Origin: Blastococcus sp. PRF04-17
GTDB taxonomy: Bacteria; Actinomycetota; Actinomycetes; Mycobacteriales; Geodermatophilaceae
Assembly (NCBI RefSeq): GCF_023016265.1
Contig: NZ_CP095412.1
Span: 1,736,001 to 1,800,000, forward strand
Direction: 5' to 3'
Length of the DNA stretch: 64,000 nucleotides
The translations under genes and the position numbers were made by a program. The notes below the pieces were generated by a model. The model was not told where the DNA came from and searched no databases. It saw nothing but the letters and a program-made list of their open reading frames with translations. Of this stretch, positions 34,766 to 60,295 are shown piece by piece (the first letter of the stretch is position 1; every line of letters begins with the position of its first letter).

Positions 34766-34841
34766 GTGGGTGTAGCTCAGCTGGTAGAGCACCAGGTTGT
34801 GATCCTGGGTGTCGCGGGTTCGAGCCCCGTCACTCACCCCA
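34766..34841 (+). tRNA. tRNA-His (GTG anticodon), CCA encoded
   Basis: Acceptor GTGGGTG pairs with CACTCAC (one G-T). D-arm GCTCAGCTGGTAGAGC, anticodon stem-loop CCAGG-TTGTGAT-CCTGG, T-arm GCGGG-TTCGAGC-CCCGT. Discriminator C at 34838 and encoded CCA at 34839-34841. The C73 discriminator with a G just before the gene (34765) is the tRNA-His identity pair. Confidence 0.97.
34814..34835 (+). repeat. att-like repeat, left copy (3' part of tRNA-His)
   Basis: 22 bp covering the T-arm and 3' acceptor of tRNA-His are repeated without mismatch at 60274-60295, in the same orientation, 25.5 kb away. Both copies are followed by a similar AGGCCCTG/CAGGGCCT hairpin. This is the pattern left by tyrosine-integrase insertion at a tRNA 3' end. 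Confidence 0.7.
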
Positions 34842-34845
34842 CCCC

Positions 34846-34881
34846 GAGAGGCCCTGGTCGATCCCCCGACCAGGGCCTCTC
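34846..34881 (+). terminator. Terminator after tRNA-His
   Basis: Perfect 15-bp stem, GAGAGGCCCTGGTCG and its exact complement, with a 6-nt loop. Confidence 0.85.
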
Positions 34882-34970
34882 CCCGTTCGCTGCGCCCCCG
34901 GGAACGGTCACAAGGGATGCCTCGCAGATGGTGGCGATGCGGGGCAGTGGCGGGGCCACTGCGCTCCGAG

Positions 34971-36716
34971 CTAGTGGTCCACTCGTGCTGTCCCCCGGCG
35001 CAGGGCGAGGCCATCGAGGAGCAGTCCTGCGGCGAGCGCCGCGCCCACCCCCTCGCCGGCACGCATGCGCAGGTCGAGCAGTGGCTCCAGCCCGAGATCG
35101 GTGAGGACCTGGGCGTGCCCTACTTCGCGGCTGCGCTGGCCGGCGATCAGCGAAGCCTGGACGGCCGGTTCCACGCGCACCGCCAGCAGGGCGGCGAGCG
35201 ACACGACGAAGCCATCGAGGACGACCGCCGCACCGGCCGCCGCGACGCCCAGCGTGACCCCGGTCAGTACCGCCAAGTCCGGGCCGCCGAGCTCGGCGAG
35301 AACGCGGACGGGATCGTCGGCCAGCCCGGGGGCGGCCTGCCGGACCCGCTGCACAGCGGCGGCGACGACGGCGAGCTTTCGGTCGAGGACGGCGCTGTCC
35401 GCGCCGGAGCCGAGCCCGGTGACCCCCGCGGGGTCTACATCGAGCAGGCCGCAGGCGACCGCAGCGGCGACCGTGGTGTTGGCGACGCCTACCTCACCGA
35501 GCGCGACCAGCCCCGCCCCACCGACCTGCCGTCCGAGCTCGCGGCCGGCCTCGAGCAGGCGCACCGTGTCGGCCGGGCTCATCGCCGCCTGACTGACCAG
35601 ATCACCGCGCCGGTCACGGGGCCGCAGCGGCGTCGCTCCCTCGATCGGCCCCCCGGCGACGCCGGCGTCCACGACGATCGGGCGCAGCCCGACCGTGCGG
35701 GCGGCGGTGGACCCGAGCGAGCTTCCGTGGACCGCGGCGCGGGTGACCTCCCGCGTGATCCCCAGGTCGTAGGCCGAGACCCGGTGCGCGGCGACGGGGT
35801 GGTCGGCGGCAGCGAGCACCAGAACGCCGTCGGCGACCTCTCCCCGACCGAGGGCGACGAGCCGGTCCAGCGCCCGGTCCAGGACCCCGAGCGACCCCGG
35901 CGGGGTCAGCAGCCGGTCGGCCCGGTCCCGGGCGGCGACCACGGCCGACGGCTCCGGAGCGCGCAGCCGGGAGTCCGGCGGGACGGGGGCGTCCGGATGG
36001 GCCGGCCAGCGGTTCGCGAGAACCACGGACGACAACGGGCTGCGCCGCGACCACCCCGCCCGTTCGAGCCCCGGGGCGGGCGGCCGCTCGTCGGGCCAGC
36101 CCAGGCACAGCCAGCCCAGTGTGACCACGCCGTCGGGCAAGCCCAGCAGGGAGGCCAGGTCCTCCGGGCGGAACAGAGTGACCCAGCCAAGCCCGAGCCC
36201 CTCCGACCGCGCGGCCAGCCACAGGTTCTGGATCGCGGTTGCGCAGCTCCACAGGTCGGCGTCCGGGAAGGTCGCCCGGCCCAGCACCCCGGCGGCGGCG
36301 GTCCGGCGATCGCAGCAGACGACCACACCCAGGGGCGCCTCCCGGACGCCTTCCAATTGCAGGTCAAGCAGCCGACGGGCGGCCTCGGGCTCGAGCTGGC
36401 CGGCCTGGCGCAGCCGTTCCCGGTCGGTGAGCACCGCGGCGCGGTCGCGGACCTCGGGATCGTCGACGACCACGAACCGCCACGGCTGGCTGTGGCCCAC
36501 GGAGGGCGCCTCGTGGGCGGCGGTGAGAATTCGGGTGAGGACGTCGTCCGGCACCGGGTCCGGGCGGAACCGGCGGACGTCGCGCCGCGCGGCCACGACC
36601 TCGTACAGGGCGTCGCGCACCGACGGCGGCATGGCCCAGCCGGTGGGGTCCGCCGCCCGCTGCGAGGCGGACGTCCGATCACCGATCAGCGGCACCGGCC
36701 GCGGCCACACGCTCAT
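34971..36716 (-). CDS. cobT: BluB-CobT fusion: DMB synthase and nicotinate-nucleotide:DMB phosphoribosyltransferase
   Basis: 581 residues in one chain. Residues about 30-235 are BluB (nitroreductase fold, makes 5,6-dimethylbenzimidazole from FMNH2): VVAARRDVRRFRPDPVPDDVL, HEAPSVGHSQPWRF, LGWVTLFRPEDLASLLGLP. Residues about 255-575 are CobT (makes alpha-ribazole phosphate): LLTPPGSLGVLDRALDRLV, ALGEVGVANTTVAAAVACGLL, TGLGSGADSAVLDRK and the terminal Glu region MRAGEGVGAALAAGLLLD. The fusion couples synthesis of the lower ligand to its activation. Follows cobN by 31 bp on the same strand, so it lies under the same riboswitch. Confidence 0.93.
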   Translation of the reverse strand: MSVWPRPVPLIGDRTSASQRAADPTGWAMPPSVRDALYEVVAARRDVRRFRPDPVPDDVLTRILTAAHEAPSVGHSQPWRFVVVDDPEVRDRAAVLTDRERLRQAGQLEPEAARRLLDLQLEGVREAPLGVVVCCDRRTAAAGVLGRATFPDADLWSCATAIQNLWLAARSEGLGLGWVTLFRPEDLASLLGLPDGVVTLGWLCLGWPDERPPAPGLERAGWSRRSPLSSVVLANRWPAHPDAPVPPDSRLRAPEPSAVVAARDRADRLLTPPGSLGVLDRALDRLVALGRGEVADGVLVLAAADHPVAAHRVSAYDLGITREVTRAAVHGSSLGSTAARTVGLRPIVVDAGVAGGPIEGATPLRPRDRRGDLVSQAAMSPADTVRLLEAGRELGRQVGGAGLVALGEVGVANTTVAAAVACGLLDVDPAGVTGLGSGADSAVLDRKLAVVAAAVQRVRQAAPGLADDPVRVLAELGGPDLAVLTGVTLGVAAAGAAVVLDGFVVSLAALLAVRVEPAVQASLIAGQRSREVGHAQVLTDLGLEPLLDLRMRAGEGVGAALAAGLLLDGLALRRGTARVDH

Positions 36717-36747
36717 CCGAGACTCCCGCCCCTTCCTCCCGGCTCGT

Positions 36748-39700
36748 TCACTGGACCGGCGCGCCGCTGCCCTCCAGGTCGCCCTCGGTGTCGAGGTAGG
36801 CCTGCTGGAGCTCGGCCAGCAGGGCCGGGTCGGGCTCGGCCCACATCTTCCGGTCGGCGGCCTCCAGCAGCCGTTCGGCGATGCCGTGCAGCGCCCACGG
36901 GTTCGACGTCTCCATGAACTCGCGGTTCTCGGGATCGAGCACGTAGGTCTGGGCCAACTTTTCGTACATCCAGTCGGCGACCACGCCCGTCGTGGCGTCG
37001 TAGCCGAACAGGTAGTCGACGGTGGCGGCCAGCTCGAACGCGCCCTTGTAGCCGTGCCGGCGCATCGCCGCGAGCCACTTCGGGTTGACCACCCGGGCCC
37101 GGAACACCCGCGCGGTCTCCTCGGTCAGCGAGCGGGTGCGCACGGACTCCGGGCGGGTCGAGTCGCCGATGTAGGCCGCCGGCTCGGCGCCGGTGAGCGC
37201 GCGGACCGTGGCCACCATCCCGCCGTGGTACTGGAAGTAGTCGTCGGAGTCGGCGATGTCGTGCTCGCGGGTGTCCACGTTCTTGGCCGCGACGGCGATC
37301 CGCCGGTACGCCGTCTCCATGTCGGGCCGCGCCTGCACGCCGTCGAGGTCCCGGCCGTAGGCGTAGCCGCCCCACACCGCGTAGACCTCGGCGAGGTCGG
37401 CGTCGCCCCGCCAGTCGCGGGAGTCGATCAGCGACAGCAGCCCCGCCCCGTAGGCGCCGGGCTTCGAGCCGAACACCCGGGTGGTGGCCCGCCGCCGGTC
37501 CCCGTGCGTGGCGACGTCGGCCTCCACGTGCGCCCGCACGAAGTTCTGCTCGTCCGGCTCGTCGAGCGAGGCGGCCAGGGTCACGGCGTCGTCGAGCATG
37601 GTGACCACGTGCGGGAAGGCGTCCCGGAAGAAGCCGCTGATCCGCACGGTGACGTCGATCCGCGGCCGGCCCAGCTCGTCGAGCGGCACCGGCTCCAGCG
37701 CCGTCACCCGGCGGGAGGCGTCGTCCCAGACGGGGCGGACGCCGAGGAGTGCGAGCACCTCGGCGACGTCGTCCCCGGAGGTGCGCATGGCCGACGTCCC
37801 CCAGACCGACAGCCCGACCGACCGCGGGTACTCCCCCGTGTCGGCGCAGTAGCGCTCGACCAGCGACTCGGCGAGCGCCTGCCCGGTCTCCCAGGCCAAC
37901 CGCGAGGGCACGGCGCGCGGGTCGACGGAGTAGAAGTTCCGGCCGGTCGGCAGCACGTTGACCAGCCCGCGCAGCGGCGAGCCCGACGGCCCAGCGGGCA
38001 CGTAGCCGCCCTCCAGGGCGTGCAGGGTGGCGTCGAGCTCGTCGGTGGTCCGGGCCAGGCGCGGCAGCACCTCTTCGACGGCGAAGCGCAGGACGGCGGC
38101 GACCTGCTCGTCGTCCCTGCCCAGGACGTCCCGCACGACCTCGTCCACCGCTCCGGTGGTCCAGTCGCGCTGCTCCATGCTCTCGACCAGCGCCTGCGCC
38201 TGCGCCTCGACGGCGTCCGTGGCGTGCAGCCCGGCGGTGCCGTCCTCGGCCAGCCCGAGCGCCTCGCGCAACCCGGGCAGTGCCACCGAGCCGCCCCAGA
38301 TCTGGCGGGCACGGAGCATGGCGAGCACCAGGTCGACCCGATCCTGGCCGACGGGAGGTGCGCCGAGCACGTGCAGGCCGTCGCGGATCTGCGAGTCCTT
38401 GATCTCGCACAGCCACCCGTCGACGTGCAGGATCATCTCGTCGAAGTGGTCGTCCTCCGGCCGCTCGTTCAACCCCAGGTCGTGCTCGAGCTTGGCGGCC
38501 TGCAGCAGCGTCCAGATCTGCGCGCGGACGGCCGGCAGCTTCGCCGGGTCCATCGCGGCGACGTTGGCGTGCTCGTCGAGCAGCTGCTCCAGGCGCGCGA
38601 TGTCGCCGTAGGTGTCGGCCCGCGCCATGGGCGGGACCATGTGGTCGACGAGCGTGGCGTGCGCCCGGCGCTTGGCCTGCGAGCCCTCGCCCGGGTCGTT
38701 GACGAGGAACGGGTAGACCAGCGGCAGGTCGCCGATCGCGGCGTCCGGCCCGCAGGAGGCGCTCAGCCCGACGGTCTTGCCGGGCAGCCACTCCATGTTG
38801 CCGTGCTTGCCGACGTGCACCAGCGCGTGCGCGCCGAACTCCGACCGCAGCCACCAGTAGGCGGCCAGGTAGTGGTGCGACGGCGGCAGGTCGGGGTCGT
38901 GGTAGATCGCGATCGGGTTCTCGCCGAAGCCGCGCGGCGGCTGCACCATGACGACGACGTGGCCGGCGCGGAGAGCTGCGAACACGATGTCGTCGCCGTC
39001 CACGAACAGCGTGCCCGGCGGCTGCCCCCAGTGCTCCACCATCGCGTCGCGGAGGTCCTCGGGCAGCGTGTCGAAGAAGGCGCGGTAGCGCGCGGCCGGG
39101 ATGCGCACCGGGTTGCCCGCCAGCTGCTCCTCGGTGAGCCAGTCGGCGTCCTGCCCGCCCGCGGCGATGAGGGCGTGGACCAGGGCGTCGCCGTCCAGCT
39201 GGGCGACGCCGGGCAGCGCGCCGGGGCCGTCGAAGGGCCCGATGTCGTAACCCTGCCCCTGCATCGCGGCCAGCAAGCGGACCACGGACGCCGGGGTGTC
39301 CAGGCCGACGGCGTTGCCGATGCGGGCGTGCTTGGTCGGGTACGCCGAGAGCATCACCACGATCCGGCGCTCGGCCGGCGGGGTGTGCCGCAGGCGGGCG
39401 TGCGCGACGGCGGTGCCGGCCACGCGCGCGGCGCGCTCGGCGTCCGCGACGTAGTGCGTCAACCCGTCGGCGTCGGTCTCCTTGAACGAGAACGGCACGC
39501 TGATCAACCGGCCGTCGAACTCGGGGATCGCGACCTGGTTGCCGACGTCGAGTGGGGACAGCCCGTCGTCGTCGGCGAGCCACTCGTCGCGGGAGCGGGT
39601 GAGGCACAGGCCCTGGATCACCGGGACGTCGAGCTCGGCGAGCGCGCCGACGTCCCAGGCGCCGTCGTCCCCGCCCGCCTGCGCGGTCGCCGGCCGGGAG

Positions 39701-40355
39701 CCGCCGGCCGCCAGCACGGTGACCACCAGGGCGTCGGCGCCCTTCAGCGTCGCGAGCAGCTCGGGGTCGACCGAGCGCAGGGAGGAGGTGAAGACCGGCA
39801 GCGCCTGCCCGCCCGCGTCCTCGATCGCGCTGCACAGCGCCTCGACGAAGGCGGTGTTCCCGGCGAGGTGGTGCGCCCGGTAGTACAGGACGGCGACGGT
39901 GGGACCGCTCGCCGGCACCCCCGCTCCAGCACGCCCCAGTCGGGTGCGACCGACGGCGGCTCGAACCCCTCGCCGGTCAGCAGCACGGTGTCGGACAGGA
40001 ATCGGCGGAGCTGGACGAGGTTCTCCGGCCCGCCCTGCGCCAGGTAGCCGTGCGCTTCCGTGGCCACGCCCATGGGAACGGTGGACAGCTCCATCAGCTC
40101 GGCGTCGGGCACCTGTTCCCCACCGAGGACGACGACCGGCGCGGGACCGGCGAGCAGCGGCGCCAGCATCTCCTCGTACTGCCGCCGGACGCCCAGGATC
40201 CGGACGACGACCAGCGGGCTGCCCTCGACGAGGGCGGCCATCGCAGCGGCATCGAGGCGGGCGGGGTTGCCCAGCCGCCAGCCGGCGCCCGAGGCCCGGG
40301 CGGACAGCAGGTCGGTGTCGCTGGTGGACAGCAGGGTGAAGGCAAGGTCGCTCAC
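36748..40355 (-). CDS. cobN: Cobaltochelatase subunit CobN, frameshifted
   Basis: Large subunit inserting Co2+ into hydrogenobyrinate a,c-diamide. GTG 40355 starts SDLAFTLLSTSDTDLLSAR. The frame breaks at a G5 run near 39918 (PDWGVLERG). Adding one G continues as VPASGPTVAVLYYRAHHLAGN and gives 1202 residues, the normal size. Conserved CobN/BchH blocks: AYPTKHARIGNAVGLDTPAS, VHVGKHGNMEWLPGK, GRNFYSVDPRAVPSRLAWE and KNVDTREHDIADSDDYFQYHGG. Led by a cobalamin riboswitch. Works with the ChlI/ChlD-type subunit encoded at 50949. Confidence 0.93.
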
Positions 40356-40394
40356 GGCGCGTTCCTCACTCGGGGTCCGCGCCCCGGGTCGTCG

Positions 40395-40495: not shown

Positions 40496-40531
40496 CGCCG
40501 ACGCTACCGGGCCCCGTCCGGGCCACCGGCG

Positions 40532-41068
40532 TCAGGCGACCTCGACCAGGTCGAGGACGAAGACGAGCGTGGCGTCCCCGGGGATCGGCCCCTGGCCGGT
40601 CGGGCCGTAACCCAGCTCGCTGGGGATGGTCACCATCCGCCGGCCGCCGACCTGCATGCCGGTGATCGCCTGCTCGAAGCCCGGGATGACCTGACCCGCC
40701 CCGACCCTCACCGGCAGCGTCTCGTCGGCGCCCCGGCTCCACGACGAGTCGAACTCCTCGCCGGTCTCGTAGAAGGCGCCGACGTACTTGACCGCGACGG
40801 CGGTGCCCTGGACGGCCTCGGCGCCGTCCCCGACGACGACATCGCTGACCTGCAGACCGCACGGCGGCGCGGCGTCGGTGGCCGGCACCTCCGGCTTCTC
40901 GGACATGTCCGTCGAGACCTCGTCCGGGGCGTCCGCCGTCTCCGCCCGCGTCTCGCACGCCTGGGACGTCGGGGCGGCGGCGCCGCCCTCGGCAGTCTCG
41001 TCCCCGCAGGCGGTGAGGGCGAGGACCAGGGCGGTCGGGACGGCGAGCAGGGCGGCGCGGCGGGACAT
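40532..41068 (-). CDS. FKBP-type peptidyl-prolyl isomerase lipoprotein
   Basis: 178 residues from ATG 41068 (AGGAGA upstream). The signal peptide ends in lipobox LTAC (Cys at about residue 21). A short acidic linker leads to one FKBP domain: AVKYVGAFYETGEEFDSSW, LPVRVGAGQVIPGFEQAITGMQVGGRRMVTIPSELGYG (the binding cleft residues), DATLVFVLDLVEVA. Exported and lipid-anchored, it would help fold envelope proteins. It is the only gene in the B12 locus with no link to that pathway. Divergent from cobG (90 bp). Confidence 0.92.
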   Translation of the reverse strand: MSRRAALLAVPTALVLALTACGDETAEGGAAAPTSQACETRAETADAPDEVSTDMSEKPEVPATDAAPPCGLQVSDVVVGDGAEAVQGTAVAVKYVGAFYETGEEFDSSWSRGADETLPVRVGAGQVIPGFEQAITGMQVGGRRMVTIPSELGYGPTGQGPIPGDATLVFVLDLVEVA

Positions 41069-41158: not shown

Positions 41159-42318
41159 ATGACCGCCGCCCCGCAGCCCCGCGACCGCGCCGACGCCTGC
41201 CCGGGCGCCCTCCAGACGCACGCCGCCGCCGACGGCGCGCTGGCGCGGGTCCGGGTGCCCGGGGGCACGCTCACCGCCGCCCAGCTGCGGGTGCTCGCCG
41301 CCGCCGCGCGCGACCTCGGCGACGGCGCCCTGGAGCTGACCAGCCGGGGGAACGTCCAGCTCCGCGGACTGCGGCCTGGGTCCGAGCCCGAGCTCGGCGA
41401 CCGGCTGGCCGCGGCGGGCCTGCTGCCGAGTGCCACCCACGAAACCGCGCGCAACCTCCTCGCGAGCGTCCTGAGCGGCCGGGCGGCGGGCTGCTCGACG
41501 TGCGGCCCTGGGTGCCGGCCTTCGACGCGGAACTGCGCGCCGACCCCCGGCTGGCGTTGCTGCCCGGCCGGTACCTCGCGGCCTTCGACGACGGCCGCGG
41601 CGACGTCGCGGGGTTGGGCGCGGACGTCGGCCTGCTGGCCCTCGACGCCGGCACCGTGGCGCTGCTCCTCGCCGGGGCCGACACGGGGCTGCGTGCGGTA
41701 CCGCAGGACGCCGTCGGGCTCGCCCTCGCCGCCACGCGCGCGTTCCTCGACGAGCGCGCGCGCCAGGGCGGCACGGCCTGGCGCCTGGCCGAGTTGTCCG
41801 CCGGGGGCGCGCGGATCGCCGGTGCGCTGGGCGGGCAGCGCGCCGAACCCGTCCCCGTGCCGCCGTCCCCGGTGACCGGGCCCGCGGGCGCCGTCGCGCA
41901 GTCCGACGGGCGCACCGCACTGGTCGCCGTCGTCCCGCTCGGCCGGCTGACCGCGACACAGGCCGACCTCCTCGCCGCGACGGCGCCGACCGACCTCCAG
42001 GTGACGCCGTGGCGCAGCGTCGTCGTGCCGGACCTGGCCGATGCCGCAGCCGCGGCCGAGCTGACCGCGGCGCGCCTGGTCCTCGATCCCCGCAGCGCCT
42101 GGCTGCGGGTCACCGCGTGCGCGGGTCTGCCCGGCTGCGCCAGGTCGCTGGCCGACGTGCGGGCCGACGCGTCGAGGGCGGTGGCCGCCGGGGCTCTGCC
42201 CGCGGCCGGGGCTCGCCAGCACTGGGCCGGCTGCGGGCGCCGCTGCGGCCGCCCGTCCGGAGCGGTCGTCGACGTGGTCGCCACCGGCCAGGGATACCGG
42301 ATCGGGAGCGGCACGTAG
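41159..42318 (+). CDS. cobG: Precorrin-3B synthase CobG, frameshifted
   Basis: Oxygen-dependent ring contraction enzyme of the aerobic B12 route, with siroheme and a 4Fe-4S cluster as in sulfite/nitrite reductases. ATG 41159 reads [25 protein letters not shown] and [15 protein letters not shown]. The frame breaks near 41483 ([10 protein letters not shown]). Adding one G gives [22 protein letters not shown] and 386 residues in total. Cluster Cys lie in [12 protein letters not shown] and [11 protein letters not shown] near the C-terminus. First of the run cobG-cobH-cobIJ. Confidence 0.92.
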
Positions 42319-42329
42319 CCTCCTCGCCG

Positions 42330-42962
42330 ATGTTCGAGCAGAGGTACGAGTACGAGAAGGACGGCGCCGAGATCTACCGGCAGTCGTTCGCCACCATCCG
42401 GGCCGAGGCCGATCTCGGCGCCCTGCCCGGGGACGTCGCCCGGGTCGCGGTGCGCATGATCCACGCCTGCGGGCAGGTGGACCTGGTCGACGACCTGGCC
42501 TTCTCCCCCGCCGTGGTCCAGCGCGCCCGCGCGGCCCTGGACGCCGGGGCACCGGTGCTCTGCGACGCCGAGATGGTCGCCTCCGGGATCACCCGCCGGC
42601 GGTTGCCGAAGGACAACGACGTCGTCTGCACGCTGAACGACCCGCGCACCCCGGGGCTCGCGGCCCAGCTCGGCACCACGCGCACCGCCGCCGCGCTGGA
42701 GCTGTGGCGGGACCGGCTCGACGGTGCCGTCGTGGCCATCGGCAACGCCCCCACCGCGCTCTTCCACCTGTTGGAGATGGTCGCGGCCGGGGCTCCCCGG
42801 CCGGCCGCCGTCCTCGGCATCCCGGTCGGGTTCATCGGGGCCGCCGAGTCCAAGGACGCCCTCGCCGCCTCGAATTTCGACTTCCTCGTGGTCCGCGGTC
42901 GCCGCGGCGGCAGCGCCATCACCGCCGCTGCCGTGAACGCGATCGCGAGCGAGGTCGAATGA
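42330..42962 (+). CDS. cobH: Precorrin-8X methylmutase
   Basis: 210 residues from ATG 42330. CobH/CbiC moves the C11 methyl to C12, giving hydrogenobyrinate. The catalytic His is in [18 protein letters not shown]; other blocks are [30 protein letters not shown] and [16 protein letters not shown]. The stop overlaps the cobIJ start (ATGA), so translation is probably coupled. Confidence 0.96.
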
Positions 42963-45179: not shown

Positions 45180-45205
45180 GCGCACCGGCCGGGCATGCTG
45201 ATCGC

Positions 45206-46291: not shown

Positions 46292-46299
46292 CCGGTCGG

Positions 46300-47040: not shown

Positions 47041-47044
47041 GGGG

Positions 47045-48274: not shown

Positions 48275-48327
48275 GACGGGCGATCCTAGGCACGGCCCGC
48301 CGGAGCCGGTTGACACGATGGGCGGCG

Positions 48328-50944: not shown

Positions 50945-50948
50945 ACGC

Positions 50949-53000
50949 GTGACCCGTGCGCCGTTTCCGCGCATGACCTACCCCTTCAGCGCCGTCGTCG
51001 GCATGGACGACATGCGGCTGGCCCTTCTGCTCAACGCCGTCTCCCCTGCCGTCGGCGGCGTGCTGGTGCGCGGGGAGAAGGGCACGGCGAAGTCGACGAC
51101 GGTCCGTGCGCTGGCCGCGGTCCTGCCGCCGGTCGCCGTCGTTCCCGGCTGCCGTTTCGCGTGCGACCCCGCCGCGCCCGACCCAGGCTGCCCCGACGGG
51201 CCGCACGAGCCCACGGCCGGTGGCCCGGTCCGCCCGGCGCGGCTGGTCGAGCTGCCCGTGGGCGCCTCGGAGGACCGGGTCGTCGGCTCGCTGGACCTGG
51301 AGCGCGCGCTCACCGAGGGCGTGAAGGCGTTCGAGCCCGGCCTGCTGGCCGCCGCCCACCGCGGCGTGCTCTACGTCGACGAGGTCAACCTGCTGCACGA
51401 CCACCTGGTCGACCTGCTGCTGGACGCCGCGGCGATGGGCACCGCCTACGTGGAGCGGGAGGGCGTGTCGGTCCGGCACGCCGCCCGCTTCCTGCTGGTC
51501 GGCACGATGAACCCGGAGGAGGGCGAGCTGCGGCCGCAGCTGCTCGACCGCTTCGGGCTGACCGTCGAGGTGGCCGCGCCCCGCGATCCGGCCGAGCGCG
51601 CGGAGGTGGTCCGCCGGCGGTTCGCCTCGGACGCCGATCCCGCGGGCTTCGGCGCCGCCTGGTCGGGCGAGGAGTCCGCGCTGGCCGCGCGGATCGCCGA
51701 TGCCCGCGCCCGGCTGCCGCACGTCGTCCTCTCCGACGCCGCGCTGCGGCAGGTGACCGCCGTGTGCGCCGCCTTCGACGTCGACGGCCTGCGCGCCGAC
51801 CTGGTCACCGCCCGCGCCGCGATCGCGCACGCCGCCTGGTCCGGCCGCGACGAGGTGACCGAGGACGACGTGCGGGTGGCCGCCCGGCTGGCCCTCCCCC
51901 ACCGCCGCCGGCGCAACCCGTTCGACGCCCCGGGACTGGACGAGGAGACGCTGGAGCAGGCGCTGTCCGACAGCCGCCCCGACGACGACCCCCAGCCGGA
52001 CGGCGACGGACCGGGGGTCGGCAAGGGCCCGCCTCCGCCGACCGACCGGGACGCCTCCGCCGGGAACGACGACGAGGAACCTCCTGCACCGGAAGTCCCT
52101 GACGACGGCGGGGCGACGACGGCGCCGCGGGGCGAGGGCGGTGGGTCCACCGCGGCCGCACCGGTGCCCGAGCGAGCCGCCGTCGCGCCGTCCGACCCGT
52201 TCCGCGCCCGGCGGCTGGAGGTCCCCGGCATCGGCGCGGGCGCGGCCGGCCGTCGGTCGCGCGCCCGCTCCGAGCGCGGCCGGGTCGTCGGCTCCACCCG
52301 ACCGGCCGGCACCGTCACGAAGCTGCACCTCCCCGCCACCGTGCTCGCCGCGGCGCCGCACCAGCGAGCGCGCGGGCGCAGCGGCCCGGGCCTGCGGATC
52401 GCCCGCGAGGACCTGCGCCAGGCCACCGTGGAGGGTCGCGAGGGCAACCTCGTCCTGTTCGCGGTCGACGCCAGCGGCTCGATGGGCTCGCGGGCACGGA
52501 TGGCCGCCGTCAAGGGCGCCGTCCTGTCCCTGCTCCTGGACGCCTACCAGCGCCGCGACAAGGTCGGCATGGTCACCTTCCGCGGCGCCGCGGCCGAGGT
52601 CGCGCTCCCGCCCACCTGGTCGGTGGAGGCGGCCGCCGCCCGGCTGACCGAGCTACCCACGGGTGGGCGGACGCCGCTGGCCGCGGGGTTGCTCAAGGCG
52701 CACGACGTCCTCCGGCTGGAACGGATCCGCGACCCGCAGCGCCGGCCGCTGCTCGTCGTGGTCACCGACGGCCGCGCCACCGGCGCGCGGTGCGGTGCCT
52801 CGCTCGCCGAGGCCCTCGCCGCCGCGGCGCTGCTGGCGGCCAGCGGCACGGCCGCGGTCGTCGTCGACTGCGAGTCGGGCCCGGTCCGGTTGGGGCTGGC
52901 GGGAGCGCTCGGGACGGCGCTCGGCGGCGAGACCCTGCGGCTGGAGGAGCTGGCCGCTGACGCCCTGGCCGAGACCGTCCGCAGCGCCAGGGCCGCCTGA
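50949..53000 (+). CDS. Cobaltochelatase ChlI/ChlD-type fused AAA+ and VWA subunit
   Basis: 683 residues from GTG 50949. AAA+ ATPase half: P-loop RGEKGTAKSTTVRALA (G42-T50), FEPGLLAAAHRGVLYVDEVNLL (Walker B), FLLVGTMNPEEGELRPQLLDRFGL. An acidic Pro-rich linker at about 340-430 joins a VWA domain with the MIDAS motif D507-x-S509-x-S511 (FAVDASGSMGSR). It is the ATP-driven partner of CobN and replaces the separate CobS and CobT subunits of proteobacteria. Fused Mg-chelatase-like subunits of this type are known in actinobacteria. The start overlaps nothing; cobO begins on its stop. Confidence 0.93.
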   Translation: MTRAPFPRMTYPFSAVVGMDDMRLALLLNAVSPAVGGVLVRGEKGTAKSTTVRALAAVLPPVAVVPGCRFACDPAAPDPGCPDGPHEPTAGGPVRPARLVELPVGASEDRVVGSLDLERALTEGVKAFEPGLLAAAHRGVLYVDEVNLLHDHLVDLLLDAAAMGTAYVEREGVSVRHAARFLLVGTMNPEEGELRPQLLDRFGLTVEVAAPRDPAERAEVVRRRFASDADPAGFGAAWSGEESALAARIADARARLPHVVLSDAALRQVTAVCAAFDVDGLRADLVTARAAIAHAAWSGRDEVTEDDVRVAARLALPHRRRRNPFDAPGLDEETLEQALSDSRPDDDPQPDGDGPGVGKGPPPPTDRDASAGNDDEEPPAPEVPDDGGATTAPRGEGGGSTAAAPVPERAAVAPSDPFRARRLEVPGIGAGAAGRRSRARSERGRVVGSTRPAGTVTKLHLPATVLAAAPHQRARGRSGPGLRIAREDLRQATVEGREGNLVLFAVDASGSMGSRARMAAVKGAVLSLLLDAYQRRDKVGMVTFRGAAAEVALPPTWSVEAAAARLTELPTGGRTPLAAGLLKAHDVLRLERIRDPQRRPLLVVVTDGRATGARCGASLAEALAAAALLAASGTAAVVVDCESGPVRLGLAGALGTALGGETLRLEELAADALAETVRSARAA

Positions 53001-53614
53001 TGCCCCGGGGACAGGTCGCGGTCGACCCGCAGGACGGGCTCACCACGAAGCAGCGGCGCAACCGGCCGCTGCTGGTGGTCCACACCGGCGAGATGAAGGG
53101 CAAGTCGACCGCCGCGTTCGGCATGGCCATGCGCGCCTGGAACCAGGGCTGGCCGGTCGCGGTCTACCAGTTCGTCAAGAGCGCCAAGTGGAAGGTCGGC
53201 GAGGAGAACGCGCTGACCGCGCTCGGCCGGCTGCACGAGCAGACCGGTGAGGGCGGGCCGGTCGTCTGGCACAAGATGGGCAGCGGCTGGAGCTGGTCGC
53301 GCCGGCAGGGCACCGAGACCGACCACGCCGCCGACGCCGCCGAGGGCTGGGCGCAGATCAAGCGGGACCTGGCCGCCGAGGCGCACCGGTTCTACGTCCT
53401 CGACGAGTTCACCTACCCCATGACGTGGGGCTGGGTCGACGTGGACGACGTCGTGGCGACGCTGACCGCGCGCACCGGCACCCAGCACGTGGTGATCACC
53501 GGCCGCACCGCGCACCCGGCGCTGGTGGAGGCGGCGGACCTGGTGGTCGAGATGACGAAGGTCAAGCACCCCATGGACGCGGGCCAGAAGGGTCAGCGAG
53601 GCATCGAGTGGTGA
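53000..53614 (+). CDS. cobO: Cob(I)yrinic acid a,c-diamide adenosyltransferase (CobO/BtuR type)
   Basis: 204 residues from ATG 53000. P-loop LLVVHTGEMKGKSTAAFGMAMRA in the reverse-orientation ATP-binding mode of CobA/BtuR enzymes; WPVAVYQFVKSAKWKVGEENAL and FYVLDEFTYPMTWGWVDV follow, then TGRTAHPALVEAADLVVEMTKVKHP. Transfers the adenosyl group to cobalt in Co(I) corrinoid. The stop overlaps the cobB start region. Confidence 0.96.
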   Translation: MPRGQVAVDPQDGLTTKQRRNRPLLVVHTGEMKGKSTAAFGMAMRAWNQGWPVAVYQFVKSAKWKVGEENALTALGRLHEQTGEGGPVVWHKMGSGWSWSRRQGTETDHAADAAEGWAQIKRDLAAEAHRFYVLDEFTYPMTWGWVDVDDVVATLTARTGTQHVVITGRTAHPALVEAADLVVEMTKVKHPMDAGQKGQRGIEW

Positions 53615-54996
53615 CGGTGCCCCGGCTGGTGGTGGCGGCCCCGAGCAGCAACGCGGGCAAGACGTCGGTGGCCACGGGGCTGATCGCCGCCCTCACCGCC
53701 CGCGGGCTCGCCGTCGCGCCGCACAAGGTCGGCCCCGACTACATCGACCCCGGCTACCACGGCCTGGCGGCCGGCCGGCCCGGCCGCAACCTGGACCCGT
53801 GGCTGGTCGGCGAGGACCGGATAGGCCCGCTCTTCCTCCGGGGGGCCCTGCACCCGCGGCCGGCCGACATCGCAATCGTCGAAGGCGTCATGGGGCTGTT
53901 CGACGGCGCGACCCACCCGTCGGTCGAGCCCGGTTTCGCCTCCACCGCGCACGTCGCCGGGCTGCTGCGGGCACCGGTCGTCCTCGTCGTCGACGCCTCG
54001 TCCCAGGCGCGGTCGGTGGCCGCGCTCGTCCACGGGTTCGCGACCTTCTCCCCCGACGTGCGGCTCGGTGGCGTCGTGCTCAACCGGGTCGGCACCGACC
54101 GGCACGAGGCCATCCTCCGCGAGGCGCTCGGCGCCGCCGGCGTGCCCGTGCTCGGTGCCGTGCGCCGGATGGCGGAGCTGCACACCCCGTCGCGGCACCT
54201 CGGCCTGATCCCGGCGGCCGAGCGGTCGGACGCCGCGCTGGCGACGGTCCGCAGGCTGGGCGAGGTCGTGGCCGCCGCCGTCGACCTCGACGCCGTGCTC
54301 ACCCTGGCGAGGTCCGCTCCTCCCCTCGACGCCCGTCCCTGGGACCCGGCGCTGGAGGTCGCGGCCACATCCGCCCGGCCCCGGATCGCGGTCGCCGGCG
54401 GACCGGCCTTCACCTTCGGCTACGCGGAGAACGCCGAGCTGCTCGAGGCCGCGGGCGCGGAGGTCGTCGCCGTCGACCCGCTGCGCGACGAGGCCCTGCC
54501 ACCCGGCACCGCGGGGCTCGTCGTGGGCGGCGGCTTCCCCGAGGTGCACGCCGCCGAGCTGTCGGCCAACGAGACGCTGCGCGCCGACGTCGCGGCCCTC
54601 GCGGCCCGGGGCGCTCCCGTCGCCGCGGAGTGCGCCGGGCTGCTCTACCTCGCCCGCGAGCTCGACGGCCTGCCCATGTGCGGGGTGCTCGACGTGGCGA
54701 CGGCGATGTCGCCCCGGCTCACCCTCGGCTACCGCGCCGCCGAGGCCGTCAGCGACTCGGTGCTCGCTTCGGCCGGCACCCGCGTCCGCGGCCACGAGTT
54801 CCACCGGACGCACGCCGCGCCGGCCGCCGGTCCCGACGCCGCGTGGCGGTGGTCGGCGGCCGGACCCGAGGGCTTCGTGGCCGGCTCTGTGCACGCCTCC
54901 TACCTGCACCTGAACTGGGCCGGCAGCCCCCAGCTGGCCCAGCGCCTCGTCACCTCCTCCGCCCGTCGATCGGAGAACGCCCGTGCACATCGCTGA
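53611..54996 (+). CDS. cobB: Cobyrinic/hydrogenobyrinic acid a,c-diamide synthase
   Basis: 461 residues from GTG 53611. Glutamine-dependent amidation of side chains a and c. The N-terminal ATP half has [45 protein letters not shown] and [12 protein letters not shown]. The C-terminal class I amidotransferase half has Cys in [17 protein letters not shown] and [18 protein letters not shown] with the His. Overlaps cobO by 4 nt and cbiM by 14 nt, so the operon is translationally tight. Confidence 0.95.
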
Positions 54997-55675
54997 AGGT
55001 TTCCTGCCGGTGGGGCACGCGGTCGGGTGGACGGTCGCCGCCGCCCCGTTCGTCGTGCACGGCGCGAGGGCCGTCGTGAAGGAGGTGCGGGAGAACCCGG
55101 AGTCGACGCTGCTGCTCGGCGCGGCCGGAGCCTTCACCTTCGTGCTGAGCGCCATCAAGCTGCCCTCGGTCACGGGCAGCTCCAGTCACCCGACCGGCAC
55201 CGGCCCCGGCGCCATCCTGTTCCGACCACCGGTGATGGCGCTCCTCGGCACCGTCGTGCTGCTGTTCCAGGCCCTGCTGCTGGCGCACGGCGGCCTGACC
55301 ACGCTGGGCGCGAACGCGTTCGCCTTCGCCGTGGTCGGTCCCTGGGCCGGGTACGGCGCCTACCGCCTCGTCCGCGGGGCGGGCGCGGGGCTGCTGCCGG
55401 CCGTCTTCGCCGGCGTCGCCCTGGCCGACCTCGCCACCTACGTCACCACGTCGCTCCAGCTCGCGCTGGCCTTCCCGGACGCGGAGAGCGGCCTGGCGGG
55501 CGCGCTGCTGAAGTTCCTCGGCGTCTTCGCGGTCACCCAGATCCCGCTGGCCGTCGGCGAGGGGCTCCTGGGCGTCCTGCTGTTCCGCGTCCTCACCGTC
55601 AACGCGCGACCCGAGCTCGAGCGGCTCGGCGTCCTCCAGCCCGCTCCCGCCGTTCCCGCCGGAGGTGCCGCATGA
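54983..55675 (+). CDS. cbiM: Cobalt ECF transporter substrate-specific component CbiM
   Basis: 230 residues from GTG 54983. The N-terminal [16 protein letters not shown] is diagnostic: the amino group and His2 bind Co2+. Six to seven membrane segments follow, including the loop [22 protein letters not shown] and [23 protein letters not shown]. Forms the cobalt importer with CbiN, CbiQ and CbiO, whose genes follow in order with overlapping ends. Confidence 0.96.
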
Positions 55676-55976
55676 TCCGCCGCACGCTCGTCACCGGGCT
55701 CCTCGTCCTCGCCGTCGTCGCCCTCTTCGCCGTCCCCCTACTGCTCGACGGCGGCACGTCGGAGTACGGCGGCACCGACGCCGCGGTCACCGAGGAACTG
55801 GAGGCGTCGGGCCACACCCCCTGGGTCGACCCGCTGTCCAGCCCGACCGGCGAGGTCGAGTCGGGCCTGTTCGCGCTGCAGGCCGCCCTCGGCGGCGGCG
55901 TCCTGGGCTACGTCCTCGGCGGCTGCGCGGCCGGCGGAGGACCCCGCCGGCGGCCGCGGGAGCCGGCGAGCGGTGA
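55672..55976 (+). CDS. cbiN: Cobalt transporter subunit CbiN, frameshifted
   Basis: ATG 55672, overlapping the cbiM stop (ATGA). Two membrane segments, [20 protein letters not shown] and [16 protein letters not shown], flank the periplasmic loop [21 protein letters not shown] and [14 protein letters not shown], typical of CbiN. Near 55921 the frame shifts. Adding one C in CTCGGCGG gives [18 protein letters not shown] and a stop at 55974-55976, so 101 residues, overlapping the cbiQ start (GTGA). Without it the frame runs on into cbiQ with no normal end. Confidence 0.9.
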
Positions 55977-56710
55977 CCGGCCTGGCCGTCGACGACGCGG
56001 CGTGGGCCAGCGCCTGGCGGCGGCGCGCGCCCGGCGACAAGCTGCTGCTCTGCGGCGGGCTGGTCGTCACCGCCCTCGTGCTGCCGGCCTGGCCCGGCAG
56101 TGCACTGGTCGGCGTCGTGGCGGTCGTGCTCGCGCTCGGCCCCGCGCGGGTGCCCACCCGCACCTTCGCCCGCGCGGTGCGCTGGCCGCTGGCCTTCGTC
56201 GCGATCGGTGCGTTCACCGCCGTCGTCACGGTGGACGGCGGCCGCCTGGGCTGGGCGCCGGACGCCGCGACCACCGCCGGCTCCCTGGTGGGGCACGCGC
56301 TGGCCGGAGGCGCGGCCGTGCTGCTGCTGGCGACGACGACGCCGATGTCGGACCTGCTCCCGGCACTGCGCCGCGCCCGGGTGCCGGCCGCCGTCGTCGA
56401 GGTCGCCGCGGTCGTCTACCGGCTGCTGTTCGTGCTGCTGGACAGCCTGCGCACCATCCGCGAGGCGCAGGCCTCCCGGATGGGCTACTCCTCGCTGCGC
56501 CGCTCCTACCGGTCCTCCGGCGCGCTGGCCGCCGCCGTCCTCATCCGCTCCTGGGACCGGGCCCGCCGGATGCAGGACGGGCTGGCCGGCCGGGGCCTCG
56601 AGACGGGTCTGCGCGTGCTGCCCGAGACGCTGCCCTCCTCCGCCGCCTTCCTCGCCGCCTCGGGTGCCGGGATCGCCGGCATCGTCGCGGCCACGCTGGT
56701 GCTGGCATGA
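55973..56710 (+). CDS. cbiQ: Cobalt transporter transmembrane component CbiQ
   Basis: 245 residues from GTG 55973. ECF transporter T-component with about five membrane segments. Family motifs: [82 protein letters not shown] (coupling Ala-Arg-Gly-like region) and [12 protein letters not shown]. Links CbiM/CbiN to the ATPase CbiO. Stop overlaps the cbiO start (ATGA). Confidence 0.94.
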
Positions 56711-57552
56711 GTCACCGCGCGCTGGCCGCCGCCGGGCTGGTCGCCGGCTACGGGTCGGGCAGCCGTGTGCTCGACGGCGCCTCCCTGACCGTGCCCGCCG
56801 GCCGGCGGCTCGCCCTGCTGGGCGCCAACGGCTCGGGCAAGACGACGCTGCTGCGCTGCCTGTCCGGCGCGCTGCGCCCGACAGCCGGGACGGTCACCGT
56901 CGACGGGGTTTCCGTGGCGTACTCCCGCTCCGGGCTGCGCACGCACCGCCAGACCGTGCAGCTGGTCCTGCAGGATCCCGACGACCAGCTGTTCAGCGCC
57001 TCCGTCGCGCAGGACGTCTCGTTCGGCCCCCTCAACCTGGGTCTGGACGACGAGGCGGTGCGGGCCCGGGTGGCCGAGGCGCTGCACCTGCTCGCCCTCG
57101 ACCCCCTGTCGGCGCGGCCCACCCACCAGCTGTCCTACGGCGAGCGCAAGCGGGTGGCGATCGCGGGTGCCGTCGCCATGCGCCCCTGCGTGCTGCTGCT
57201 GGACGAGCCGACCGCGGGACTCGATCCCTCCGCTGTCACCGAGACGCTGGCGGCGCTGGCCCGGTTGCAGGAGCACGACAGCACCGTGGTCATGAGCACC
57301 CACGACGTCGACCTCGCGTTGCGGTGGGCGGACGAGGTCGCCGTGGTGGTGGACCGGGCCGTCGTCCAGGGCCGGCCGGACGAGGTGCTGGCGGACACGG
57401 CGCTGCTCGGCCGCGCGCGGCTGGACCGGCCGTGGGCGCTGACGGTCGGAGCCCGGCTGCGCGAGCTGGGCCTGCTGCCGCCCGGCGCGCTCCCGCGCAC
57501 CACGGACGACCTGCTGGCGGCGCTGCCCTCGGCACCGGCGGTGCGCCCGTGA
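56707..57552 (+). CDS. cbiO: Cobalt transporter ATP-binding protein CbiO
   Basis: 281 residues from ATG 56707. Walker [18 protein letters not shown]-loop [23 protein letters not shown] (typical of ECF ATPases), signature [14 protein letters not shown], Walker [13 protein letters not shown] and switch [14 protein letters not shown]. Final component of CbiMNQO. Overlaps the cobE start (GTGA). Confidence 0.95.
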
Positions 57553-57896
57553 TCACCGTGGGCGTCGGGACGTCCAGCGGGGTGAGTGCGGCGGAGGTGC
57601 TGGCCGCGGTGGACGCGGTGCTGCCCGCCGGCGCGACCTCCGTGCGCCTGTCGACCCTCGACACGCGGCTACTGGAGGCGGGCATCCGCGAAGCGGCGGC
57701 GCACCGGGGCTGGCGGCTCGTCGGCCACCCCGCCGCCGTGCTGGCCGCGGTGCCGGTCCCGACGCCGTCGGCGCGGGTCGCGGCCGCCGTCGGCACCGCC
57801 TCCGTGGCCGAGGCCGCGGCATTGGTGGACGGCGGCTCGCTCATGGTGCCCAAGACGGTGCTCGGCCGGGTCACCGTGGCCCTGGTGGTCGGCTGA
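57549..57896 (+). CDS. cobE: CobE (CbiG C-terminal domain-like)
   Basis: 115 residues from GTG 57549. Begins [24 protein letters not shown] and continues [52 protein letters not shown]. This is the CobE/GbiG-C domain; in the cobalt-early pathway it is part of CbiG, while in the aerobic pathway its role is not settled. Overlaps cbiO by 4 nt and touches the cobC start. Confidence 0.88.
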
Positions 57897-58939
57897 TGAC
57901 CGATCTCCACCACCACGGCGACGCGGAGCTGGCCCCCGGCCTGGTCGACCTCGCCGTCAACGTCCGCGCCGACGCGCCGCCGGCGTGGCTGCGCACCGTG
58001 CTGCACGCCTCGATCGACGCCGCGGCGGCGTACCCGGATCCCGCGCCGGCCCGGGCGGCGGTCGCCGCCGCCCACGGCCGCCCCGTCGAGGAGGTGCTCC
58101 TCGCAGCCGGCGCGGCCGAGGTCTTCGTCCTCGTCGCCCGGGCCCTGCGCCCCCGGCTCGCCGCTGTCGTCCACCCGTCGTTCACCGAGCCGGAGGCGGC
58201 GCTGCAGGCGGCCGGGCACCCCGTGACCCGCGTGCAGCTGCGTGCCGAGGACGGCTGGCGGCTCGACCTGTCCGCGGTGCCCGAGGAGGCCGACCTCGTC
58301 GTGCTCGGCAACCCGACGAACCCGACGTCCGTGCTCCACCCGACCGCCGACATCGCCGACCTGGCCCGACCGGGGCGGGTGCTCGTGGTCGACGAGGCCT
58401 TCGCCGACACGGTGCCCGGAGAACCCGGCTCGGTGGCAGCCCGACGGGAAATCCCCGGCCTGCTCGTCGTGCGCAGCCTGACCAAGACCTGGGGACTGGC
58501 CGGTCTCCGGGTGGGCTATGCGCTGGGTCCAGCACCGCTGGTGGCGCGCCTGGCCGCCGCCCAGCCGCACTGGCCGGTGTCCACGCCCGCGCTCGCCGCG
58601 CTCGTCGCCTGCAGCACGGCCGCTGCGCGCGCCGAGGCCGAGGCGGTGGCGCGGGACGTCGACCGGTGGCGAGCGGCGCTCATCGGGAGCCTGCCGCCCT
58701 CCGTGGTCGTGGAGGGGAGTCCCCGCTCCTCCTTCGTGCTGCTCCGCGTCCCCGGCGGGGCGCGGGTGCGCGCCCAGCTGCGGCGGCGGGGCTGGGCGGT
58801 GCGGCGCGGGGACACCTTCCCCGGCCTGACCGCGGACCACCTCCGGGTCGCCGTGCGACGACCCGAGGTCTCCTCCGCCTTCGCCTCCGACCTGGCCGCC
58901 GTCCTTTCACCCGTCCCGACTCCCGAGGAGGTGCCATGA
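57896..58939 (+). CDS. cobC: PLP-dependent threonine-phosphate decarboxylase-like protein (CobC)
   Basis: 347 residues from ATG 57896. Class I aminotransferase fold: AVNVRADAPPAWLRTVL, AYPDPAPARAAVAAAHGR, VVLGNPTNPTSVLHPT, VLVVDEAFADTVPGE and the PLP Lys in VVRSLTKTWGLAGLRVGYALG. In cobalamin clusters this HisC-like protein makes (R)-1-amino-2-propanol phosphate from threonine phosphate for CobD. Mycobacterial relatives are named CobC. Overlaps cobE by 1 nt and cobA by 4 nt. Confidence 0.9.
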   Translation: MTDLHHHGDAELAPGLVDLAVNVRADAPPAWLRTVLHASIDAAAAYPDPAPARAAVAAAHGRPVEEVLLAAGAAEVFVLVARALRPRLAAVVHPSFTEPEAALQAAGHPVTRVQLRAEDGWRLDLSAVPEEADLVVLGNPTNPTSVLHPTADIADLARPGRVLVVDEAFADTVPGEPGSVAARREIPGLLVVRSLTKTWGLAGLRVGYALGPAPLVARLAAAQPHWPVSTPALAALVACSTAAARAEAEAVARDVDRWRAALIGSLPPSVVVEGSPRSSFVLLRVPGGARVRAQLRRRGWAVRRGDTFPGLTADHLRVAVRRPEVSSAFASDLAAVLSPVPTPEEVP

Positions 58940-60144
58940 CCACCATCTCGCTCCCCCGTCCGTCCGCTCCCCTGCACCCGGTCGGCCTCCGGCTCCAGGA
59001 CCGGCAGGTGGTCGTCGCCGGCGGAGGTGCCGACGCCTACCGGGCCGTCGTCGGCCTGCTGGATGCCGGCGCGGTCGTCACTGTCGTCAGCCCCACGGTC
59101 GTACCCGCGCTCGAGGCGCTCGCCGGCTCCGGGGCGCTGTCGTGGACCCGGCGCCGCTACGCCTCCGGGGATCTGGCGTCCGCCTGGTACGCCGTGGCGG
59201 CGACCGAGGACCCGGCGACGGACGAGGCCGTCGCCGCCGACGCCGAACGTGACCGGATGTTCTGCAGCCGTGCCGACGACCCAGGCGCCTCCAGCGCCTG
59301 CGCCGCCCTGGCCGTCGCCGAGGAACCGGTACCGCACGACGGCCGGCGCGGCCGGGTCGTCCTGGTCGGGGGTGGGCCGGGTGACCCCGGCTTGATCACC
59401 GTGCGCGGCAGGCAGGCGCTCGCGCAGGCCGACGTCGTGGTCGTCGACCACCTGGGCCCCCGGTCGCTCCTGGCCGGGCTGCGCCACGACGTGGAGGTCG
59501 TGGACGCGTCGAAGCTGCCGCGCGGACGGGCGATGCCGCAGGAGGAGATCAACGAGCTGCTGGTGTCGCACGCCCGCGCGGGCGAGATGGTCGTGCGCCT
59601 CAAGGGCGGCGACCCGTTCGTGTTCGGCCGCGGTATGGAGGAGCTGCTCGCGTGCGCGGCCGCCGACGTCCCGGTCGAGGTCGTCCCCGGCGTCACCAGC
59701 GCGGTCGGGGTCCCCGGGGTGGCCGGGATCCCGGTGACCCACCGCGGCCTCACTCACGACTTCGTCGTGGTCTCCGGGCACCTACCCCCGGACCACCCCC
59801 AGTCGCTCGTCGACTGGTGCGCGATCGGCAGGCTGCGCGGCACCGTCGTCGTCCTCATGGGGGTGGAGACGGCGCCGGCGATCGCCGCCGCGCTCATCCG
59901 GCACGGCCGCAGGCCGGACACCCCCGTCGCTGTCGTGGTCGAGGGAACGACCGGCGGGGAGCGCTCGGTCCGGACGACCCTGGCGGACCTGGGGACGACG
60001 ATGCGCGAGGAGTCGGTCCGCCCGCCGGCCGTATGGGTCGTCGGTGACGTCGTGCAGTTGGCCGCAGCGGCCGACCAACCGACGTCGGTCGACGCTCTGA
60101 GCCGCTGGGCGACGACCACCCGCCCGGTCCCGCCCGGACGGTGA
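58936..60144 (+). CDS. cobA: Uroporphyrinogen-III C-methyltransferase with N-terminal precorrin-2 dehydrogenase-like domain (CysG type)
   Basis: 402 residues from ATG 58936. Residues 1-140 resemble the NAD-dependent precorrin-2 dehydrogenase domain (QVVVAGGGADAYRAVVGLLDAGAVVTVVSP, then SADDPGAS-like CSRADDPGASSACAAL), but GGGADAYR departs from the usual GGGxVAxRK, so activity is uncertain. Residues about 145-385 are the methylase: VVLVGGGPGDPGLITVRG, PRGRAMPQEEINELLV, MVVRLKGGDPFVFGRGMEEL, VVPGVTSAVGVPGVAGIPVTHRG. It makes precorrin-2, the first committed step. Last gene of the operon. Confidence 0.93.
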   Translation: MTTISLPRPSAPLHPVGLRLQDRQVVVAGGGADAYRAVVGLLDAGAVVTVVSPTVVPALEALAGSGALSWTRRRYASGDLASAWYAVAATEDPATDEAVAADAERDRMFCSRADDPGASSACAALAVAEEPVPHDGRRGRVVLVGGGPGDPGLITVRGRQALAQADVVVVDHLGPRSLLAGLRHDVEVVDASKLPRGRAMPQEEINELLVSHARAGEMVVRLKGGDPFVFGRGMEELLACAAADVPVEVVPGVTSAVGVPGVAGIPVTHRGLTHDFVVVSGHLPPDHPQSLVDWCAIGRLRGTVVVLMGVETAPAIAAALIRHGRRPDTPVAVVVEGTTGGERSVRTTLADLGTTMREESVRPPAVWVVGDVVQLAAAADQPTSVDALSRWATTTRPVPPGR

Positions 60145-60273
60145 CTGGGGGCAGATCGGGGGGGCAAGCCGGACGATGAGGGCCGCTCAGGACCGCTCAA
60201 CGACCATCGGGAGCGGCGGTGATACCCGGTGGCCTGCGGGCTCGCCGTGCCCAGGCCCGGGACGGCCGCACTG

Positions 60274-60295
60274 GCGGGTTCGAGCCCCGTCACTC
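60274..60295 (+). repeat. att-like repeat, right copy (tRNA-His 3' remnant)
   Basis: Exact 22-bp copy of 34814-34835 with no tRNA 5' half before it. The base after it is missing relative to the tRNA and no CCA follows, so it cannot be a working tRNA. It lies 130 bp after cobA. The hairpin that follows matches the layout of the tRNA-His terminator. The rest of the 60145-60423 gap shows no open frame I would support. Confidence 0.7.

Follow-up and report, generated by a model that had tools for sequence, protein, structure and literature searches.

Why does a nearly whole vitamin B12 (cobalamin) pathway lie between a tRNA gene and a displaced copy of the end of that same gene? The question is raised by a 64,000-nucleotide stretch of the genome of Blastococcus sp. 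PRF04-17 (Geodermatophilaceae), hereafter the window, in which the histidine tRNA gene (tRNA-His) is followed by a block of cob genes that reaches to a second copy of its T-arm and acceptor end. Our analyses suggest, with good though not full confidence, that window positions 34814-60295 are an integrase-less island with ends resembling attachment (att) sites, akin to cis-mobilizable elements (CIMEs) and placed in a tRNA-His hotspot with tandem accretion in the Geodermatophilaceae. Of the readings weighed, the likeliest, with somewhat better than even chances, has the cob genes coming in as cargo with the event behind this repeat. The island looks like an old movable element that has lost its moving enzyme.

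The 22-bp string of the tRNA end recurs exactly and on the same strand, at a repeat-to-repeat distance of 25,460 bp. The whole 4,585,415-base contig holds these two sites only (none for the reversed-pattern control), and no third copy was found in the window with up to five mismatches allowed. A similar GC hairpin stands 10 bases past the left copy and 7 bases past the right one. An initial annotation of this DNA, drawn from its letters alone, had described a perfect 22-bp copy of the T-arm and acceptor end of tRNA-His in the same orientation, with similar terminators, and the exact match of a genome-unique pair bears this out. Its proposal that these are the traces of integration at the 3' end of tRNA-His seems well supported by arms on both sides, by the same arms around other cargo and by a cognate-looking integrase elsewhere, but no empty site belonging to this very island came to light.

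Conserved arms beside the repeats

Each repeat is accompanied by a conserved arm on the side of the cob genes (Table 1). The left arm begins 127 bp past the first base of the window's left repeat and stands 127-135 bp from the start of the tRNA core, with 0-5 mismatches, in the window, G009, G012, G048, G062, G029 and G059; the window's motif differs at one position from the form in G009 and was met in none of 100 shuffles at three or fewer mismatches. The left motif and the far right motif, both chosen for the shuffle test after having been seen, each occur once in the window and in none of 100 shuffles. The cob genes fill the island from arm to arm: the left arm ends at 34964 and the first gene starts at 34971, while the last gene ends at 60144 and the far right motif starts at 60147.

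The DNA before the tRNA-end copies is not tRNA yet conserved, and some genomes have GGGGGCA repeats farther to the left. An arm like the window's right arm stands before tRNA-His copies in 10 further genomes of the Geodermatophilaceae, with unrelated cargo, and a profile of 10 genomes, from which the tRNA letters and the window itself were left out, ranked 60229-60272 first in the window (E value 1.1e-4, the next match being at 0.79). A sequence-only model of the right module, built from eight stretches including the window and run over 146 genomes with a cut-off of 50 bits, detected the full module at 12 places or more in at least 11 genomes of four genera, always downstream of tRNA-His and on its strand, these counts being lower bounds owing to stricter filters that lose weak matches. 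Eight of the 12 places had entered the model and four were new (G029, G034, G036 and G085). The window scored 63.2 bits although it is part of the model, eight others scored 68-86, and G034, G036 and a second site in G005 scored lower. A pattern scan of genome contigs gave 10 records, all bearing Geodermatophilaceae names, and the exact right-module pattern had no match in viral contigs.

An arm pattern, GGGGGGCAGATNGGGGGGCA, matched at 13 places in 53 genomes with up to two mismatches, against six for the reversed control, and was set aside. Six of the 13 are at tRNA-His (G009, G012, G029, G059, G078 and G085) and seven elsewhere, four of these forming one tandem run in G010; no integrase was seen by eye near the seven, among the genes called within about 3 kb. 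Repeat-like matches inside cobN of G013, G053, G057 and G078 were dropped as coding matches.

The tRNA-His site in related genomes

The positions of orn and cobN were compared in 146 genomes, 86 of them from the same family, and 53 orn neighbourhoods were read (33 clustered, 18 more and two short ones). Throughout the 33 clustered regions, orn and tRNA-His are followed by a genome-specific stretch and then, in most regions long enough, by a common backbone, which in the window's case resumes about 5.6 kb past the right repeat, beyond secDF and a gene for a putative zinc-binding protein. Positions past 64000 are off by one in this comparison, a base being doubled at the join with the adjoining DNA, and a 242-residue gene spanning that join was given no weight. 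As in the window, second copies of the tRNA-His end with 0-3 mismatches occur downstream in G002, G005, G012, G046, G048 and G078, at distances of 1.9-25.5 kb. The cargo at the site, named by our reading of the sequence, is one oxidoreductase in G002, kdp and trk genes in G012 and G029, HipBA in G046, AraC-type regulators in G048, thiol and copper genes in G078, and an iron or B12-type ATP-binding cassette transporter in G085. No integrase was seen in the relatives' copy-bounded intervals and no conjugation gene in their islands; counts of matches to the tyrosine integrase family PF00589, taken over 34 genomes, are lower bounds.

A gene that we read as prfC-like directly follows the right copy in G036, with the cargo upstream, and directly follows tRNA-His itself, present in one copy, in G067 and G070. 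The flank of G036 aligns with these two genomes at 91.5% (744 bases) and 90.6% (716 bases), and the three genomes present the occupied and the empty site within one genus. G008 and G015, which lack cobN and are 99 and 100% complete, have a single copy and the backbone within a few genes of tRNA-His, and G002, likewise without cobN, has its own 1.9-kb segment with a tRNA-end copy. The initial annotation had regarded copies at this place without cob genes as evidence against an island. Such copies do occur (G002, G005, G046, G048 and G078, as well as G029, G034, G036 and G085), but they bound other cargo at other distances, and we therefore read them as a hotspot rather than as a refutation.

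Just past the right repeat, at 61096-63393, the window encodes a fused SecDF matched in at least five of the 86 family genomes, a lower bound with seven candidates scored per genome.

A candidate integrase and an excisionase-like protein

Matches to the tRNA core away from tRNA-His were found at G006:C44:121012 and G058:C4:697700. The surrounding segments (G006:C44:113312-128312 and G058:C4:690000-705000; L193-L195) come from two genera and share 99.4% identity across 15 kb or more, which looks like a very recent transfer. They carry an HTH_17 gene and then an intact tyrosine integrase gene (PF00589, E value 1.8e-15) that ends 58 bp short of the core. Beyond the core, the DNA shared with the relatives' post-tRNA-His region is mostly core and terminator only, about 45-85 bp; among the matches listed it extends into the arm in G009 (81% over 151 bp, E value 1.5e-29), G048 (133 bp), G029 (131), G072 (130) and G036 (124). 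The core in G006 and G058 looks like an attP site, flanked by the integrase gene and, opposite it, by the left arm. Integrases 88-89% identical to that of G006 occur in G078 and G057, and a partial one in G075; in none of these three was a tRNA-His core present in the flank fetched.

An excisionase-like protein (PHROG 1840, E value 6.6e-4) is encoded near the right end in G048 and L228, inside the stretch in G029 and as a fragment in G005; it was matched in three of the 146 genomes (G005, G029 and G048), and had no match in plasmids. At the left end a short and often broken frame, with a start resembling MSLEPPS.WIE.RGR, occurs in L228 (12-401) and past the left arm in G059, G062, G029 and G078; it reads like the start of an integrase, with no Pfam recognition.

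Position and descent of the cob genes

At the threshold used, cobN is present in 72 of the 86 family genomes. Five of the 14 genomes without it belong to the window's genus, two of them only 80 and 88% complete. In nine of the 72 it is found on the strand opposite to orn and no more than 25 kb downstream of that gene, namely in G000 (the source genome), G006, G012 and, in the genus g12, G040, G053, G057, G064, G075 and G084, two genera in all. The initial annotation had held that an ever-present block, or tRNA-His and cob genes as ancestral neighbours family-wide, would speak against an island; the block proved neither constant in its presence nor confined to this place. In G104, from another family, cobN is found about 17 kb on the other side of orn, and 19 of the 20 other cob neighbourhoods fetched fall at three other locations, each of them recurrent (G005 and G011 partly recognised), G003 being unplaced.

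Phylogenies were computed for cobN (29 genomes) and rpoB (without six of the 16 genus genomes: G001, G003, G004, G005, G007 and G014), and distances were compared for the 25 genomes having both genes, or 300 pairs. On the cobN tree the window and G006 are sisters (support 100/100), outside a clade of seven genus members (100/100). G013 joins G053 of g12 on cobN (99/96), and on rpoB it joins G008 and G010 (100/99), outside g12 (99/99); G084 joins G081 on cobN (100/100) and G064 on rpoB (99/97). Monophyly of the genus is rejected on cobN (p 0.02), and rpoB also holds the genus together poorly. The initial annotation had opposed an island to cob genes that follow the species tree: cobN disagrees with rpoB in parts (G013, G084). 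For the window and G006 the ratio of cobN to rpoB distance is the lowest of the 300 pairs (1.33, median 2.15), and the pair ranks 1 of 66 for cobIJ, 3 of 120 for cobH and 56 of 190 for cobG; among flanking genes, it ranks 89 of 406 for orn and 214 of 300 for the gene at 32662-33804. These distances favour, without proving, an exchange of cob genes between the lineages of the window and of G006, in either direction. Exchange of cob genes between species of this family, in either direction, is shown best for G013 and G053, and the position of the genes has changed several times.

The B12 genes of the interval

The interval 34971-60144, in which our home-made caller placed 22 genes and its gene limits, is nearly all B12 genes with one FKBP gene by NCBIfam and Pfam naming, as the initial annotation had said. 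By our reading, a frame that separates cbiM from cbiQ is cbiN-like. Of the genome's 11 PF00589 matches, none falls in the interval, and no transfer gene is among the 22 genes called, relaxase families having had no separate search; the annotation's remark on the absence of integrase, relaxase and phage genes agrees with PF00589 being absent and with called genes that are only B12 and FKBP genes. Its statement that base composition matches the host also holds, with GC contents of 76.4% in the island, 73.7% in the left flank and 75.1% in the right flank (3.7 kb only), and a correlation of 0.983 between island and flank codon frequencies.

Table 1. Features of the cobalamin island and its ends (window positions).
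Feature	Position	Strand	Remark
tRNA-His (GTG)	34766..34841	+	ARAGORN; intact, putative integration target
Left 22-bp repeat	34814..34835	+	T-arm and acceptor end; attL-like core
Terminator-like GC hairpin past tRNA	34846..34882	+	from sequence
Left arm motif	34941..34964	+	GGGGCAGTGGCGGGGCCACTGCGC; also at other tRNA-His islands
bluB-cobT fusion	34971..36716	-	positions in relatives compared
cobN	36748..40355	-	frame broken near 39900 as assembled
FKBP-type peptidyl-prolyl isomerase	40532..41068	-	
cobG	41159..42318	+	frame broken near 41500 as assembled
cobH, cobIJ, cobK(-), cbiD, cobM(-), cobL(-), cbiB	42330..49269	mixed	
cobQ (two frames)	49266..50764	+	broken near 49500 as assembled
Chelatase ChlI/D-type, cobO, cobB, cbiM	50973..55675	+	
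cbiQ, cbiO, cbiG C-terminal part, cobC, cobA	55973..60144	+	cobA with NAD-binding and tetrapyrrole methylase domains
Right arm	60146..60273	+	GGGGGCAGATCGGGGGG at 60147, CTCAGGACCGCTC, GGCCCGGGACGGCC stretch adjoining core; model match
Right 22-bp repeat	60274..60295	+	attR-like core
Terminator-like hairpin past right copy	60303..60339	+	from sequence

When 40 genes (19 in the island and 21 outside) were compared with test proteins of relatives, 35 showed no frame break. cobN, cobG, cobQ and the flank gene at 32662-33804 were read in two frames with all three test proteins, and cobC with two of three, which is due to relatives that can have cobC fused to cbiG. The broken frames of cobN (39900-40355), cobG and cobQ, which the initial annotation had not noticed, may be either long-read assembly errors or signs of a decaying pathway, as both fit. 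BluB-CobT is one protein of 581 residues. Full-length matches to it are separated from cobN by more than 320 kb in G012 and G057, and are on a different contig than cobN in G005, G009, G014, G053 and G075, whereas G011 has a broken one about 4 kb from cobN. bluB-cobT is kept apart from the cob genes in most relatives searched; since this holds for the seven with a full-length match, at least one join must have occurred in or near this island.

Another CobT-like stretch, 39% identical, lies in the source genome at G000:C1:2701513. At window positions 28422-28477 there is a 23-bp direct repeat, GGAGCCGAAACCGCGGTTCTGGC, whose copies are 33 bp apart.

Likeness to known systems

Tycheposons are tRNA-targeted elements that carry metabolic cargo, and the island would be alike in both respects. 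Actinomycete integrative and conjugative elements carry integrase, replication and TraB-like transfer genes, none of which is among the called island genes. Among the matches listed in a literature search, no title concerned this island. CIMEs keep att-like ends, have lost integration and transfer genes, and accrete in tandem at the end of one target gene (PMC5704250). The island resembles them in keeping the 22-bp repeat and arms on both sides at the end of a target gene, where a functional att role would be attributed to them, and in having no integration or transfer genes among the genes called; it differs in its B12 cargo and in that descent from an integrative and conjugative or integrative and mobilizable element, and mobilisation, are here only putative. 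Possible traces of such decay are the excisionase-like gene (G048, G029, L228 and the fragment in G005) and the integrase-like stubs without a Pfam match; a conjugation gene was not seen in these islands. The order in G006 and G012, with the newest element beside the tRNA, is what tandem accretion can give (PMC5704250). In its testable features the island matches a CIME.

The tDNA islands of the Islander type (PMC4383910) share with this island a restored tRNA gene at one end and a displaced fragment in the same orientation at the distal end, but no integrase was found inside the present one, which therefore fails as an autonomous tRNA island. The vinyl chloride respiration islands of Dehalococcoides, horizontally acquired at ssrA, are likewise metabolic islands at one RNA gene, in a different phylum and with a different target and cargo; they are likened by description only (PMC3146451).

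Proposed origin of the island and rival explanations

It seems reasonable to propose that a tyrosine integrase that recognises the 3' end of tRNA-His and has arm sites flanking the core once linked a circular DNA to this site. This would have produced an intact tRNA-His with the left arm on one side, and the right arm, displaced tRNA end and terminator on the other, as both are present in the sequence. The integrase and transfer genes, none of which is among the genes called, would then have been lost, leaving as cargo a near-complete B12 pathway with the bluB-cobT fusion, and newer elements would integrate beside the tRNA and push older cargo outward, as the order in G006 and G012 suggests.

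Several observations weigh against this account. No empty site with the window's flanks was found, as none of the 32 clustered regions from relatives has secDF after tRNA-His; the B12-less relatives expected by the initial annotation, with orn, tRNA-His and secDF joined around one copy, did not turn up. The whole unit of arms and cob genes occurs in no relative read. In G006 a degraded right module stands between copper-type cargo and cobN, and in G012 a tRNA-end copy stands between the kdp/trk cargo and cobN; cob genes are therefore not always the cargo of a copy-bounded unit, whereas in the window they adjoin the tRNA and the secDF part lies past the right copy. They also sit in the hotspot with no recognised arms in G040, G053, G057, G064, G075 and G084, and can thus sit here unbounded. 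Left-motif matches with five mismatches also occur away from tRNA-His in G012, G066, G072, G055 and G076, so that it is position that speaks for the five-mismatch site past tRNA-His in G012. The arm on the integrase side in G006 and G058 differs from the right arm of the islands, and this integrase may therefore not be their exact partner. No integrase or excisionase-like gene is among the called island genes, serine recombinase families having had no separate search. As to descent, the next-lowest distance ratio, 1.37, is close behind that of the window and G006, and the rpoB tree leaves the sisterhood of these two unsettled.

Some of these points would also suit a resident att-bounded island with other cargo, into which the cob genes moved later by homologous or illegitimate recombination. 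Besides the six genomes with cob genes but no recognised arms and the two with cob genes past a tRNA-end copy, the separation of bluB-cobT from cob in seven relatives with a full-length match speaks for this scenario; yet the gaps that separate the cob genes from the left arm motif and from the far right motif measure 6 bp and 2 bp, no remnant of an earlier cargo was seen, and we hold it to be unlikely, if worth keeping in mind. A common position in two genera would follow if tRNA-His and cob had been adjacent in the ancestor of the window's genus and g12, the cob genes having moved away elsewhere and the right copy being incidental, and the count of position changes cannot separate gain from loss. 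However, only nine of 72 genomes have this position, which changes six times on the rpoB tree, itself with weak forks; the nine loci as one clade are rejected for cobN (approximately unbiased test, p-AU 8.2e-70) and for rpoB (4.3e-5); and the conserved arms are left unexplained. Such ancestry is very improbable.

The similar hairpins at both copies would be expected had the tRNA end and its terminator been duplicated locally with no recombinase, a local duplication being the rival explanation named in the initial annotation. We find it hardly credible in view of the non-tRNA letters that the window shares, before its right copy, with ten other genomes of unrelated cargo. Still less probable, to the point of being negligible, is a right-hand module preserved in its own right as a functional RNA gene or pseudo-tRNA: a GGGCC-ACCA-GGCCC hairpin is common in the set, but pair-keeping double changes were seen at none of 13 predicted pairs, and the covariation term was unfavourable (eight sequences). 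As regards the ends, a CIME-like island at tRNA-His has strong support.

What the island may mean for the family

At this site a nearly whole cofactor pathway occupies a place bounded by tRNA sequence, where relatives carry unrelated genes between ends of the same sequence. One may go further and imagine, as a tentative hypothesis to which we give distinctly less than even chances, that att arms shared across the family allow non-autonomous, integrase-less islands at tRNA-His to be moved in trans, by the integrases of other elements, as interchangeable cassettes for B12, potassium uptake, copper, and iron or B12 transport, B12 passing repeatedly between genera. The island would offer a concrete route by which members of the family may change between making and not making B12, with a pair of recombination arms and a candidate integrase at hand in related strains.

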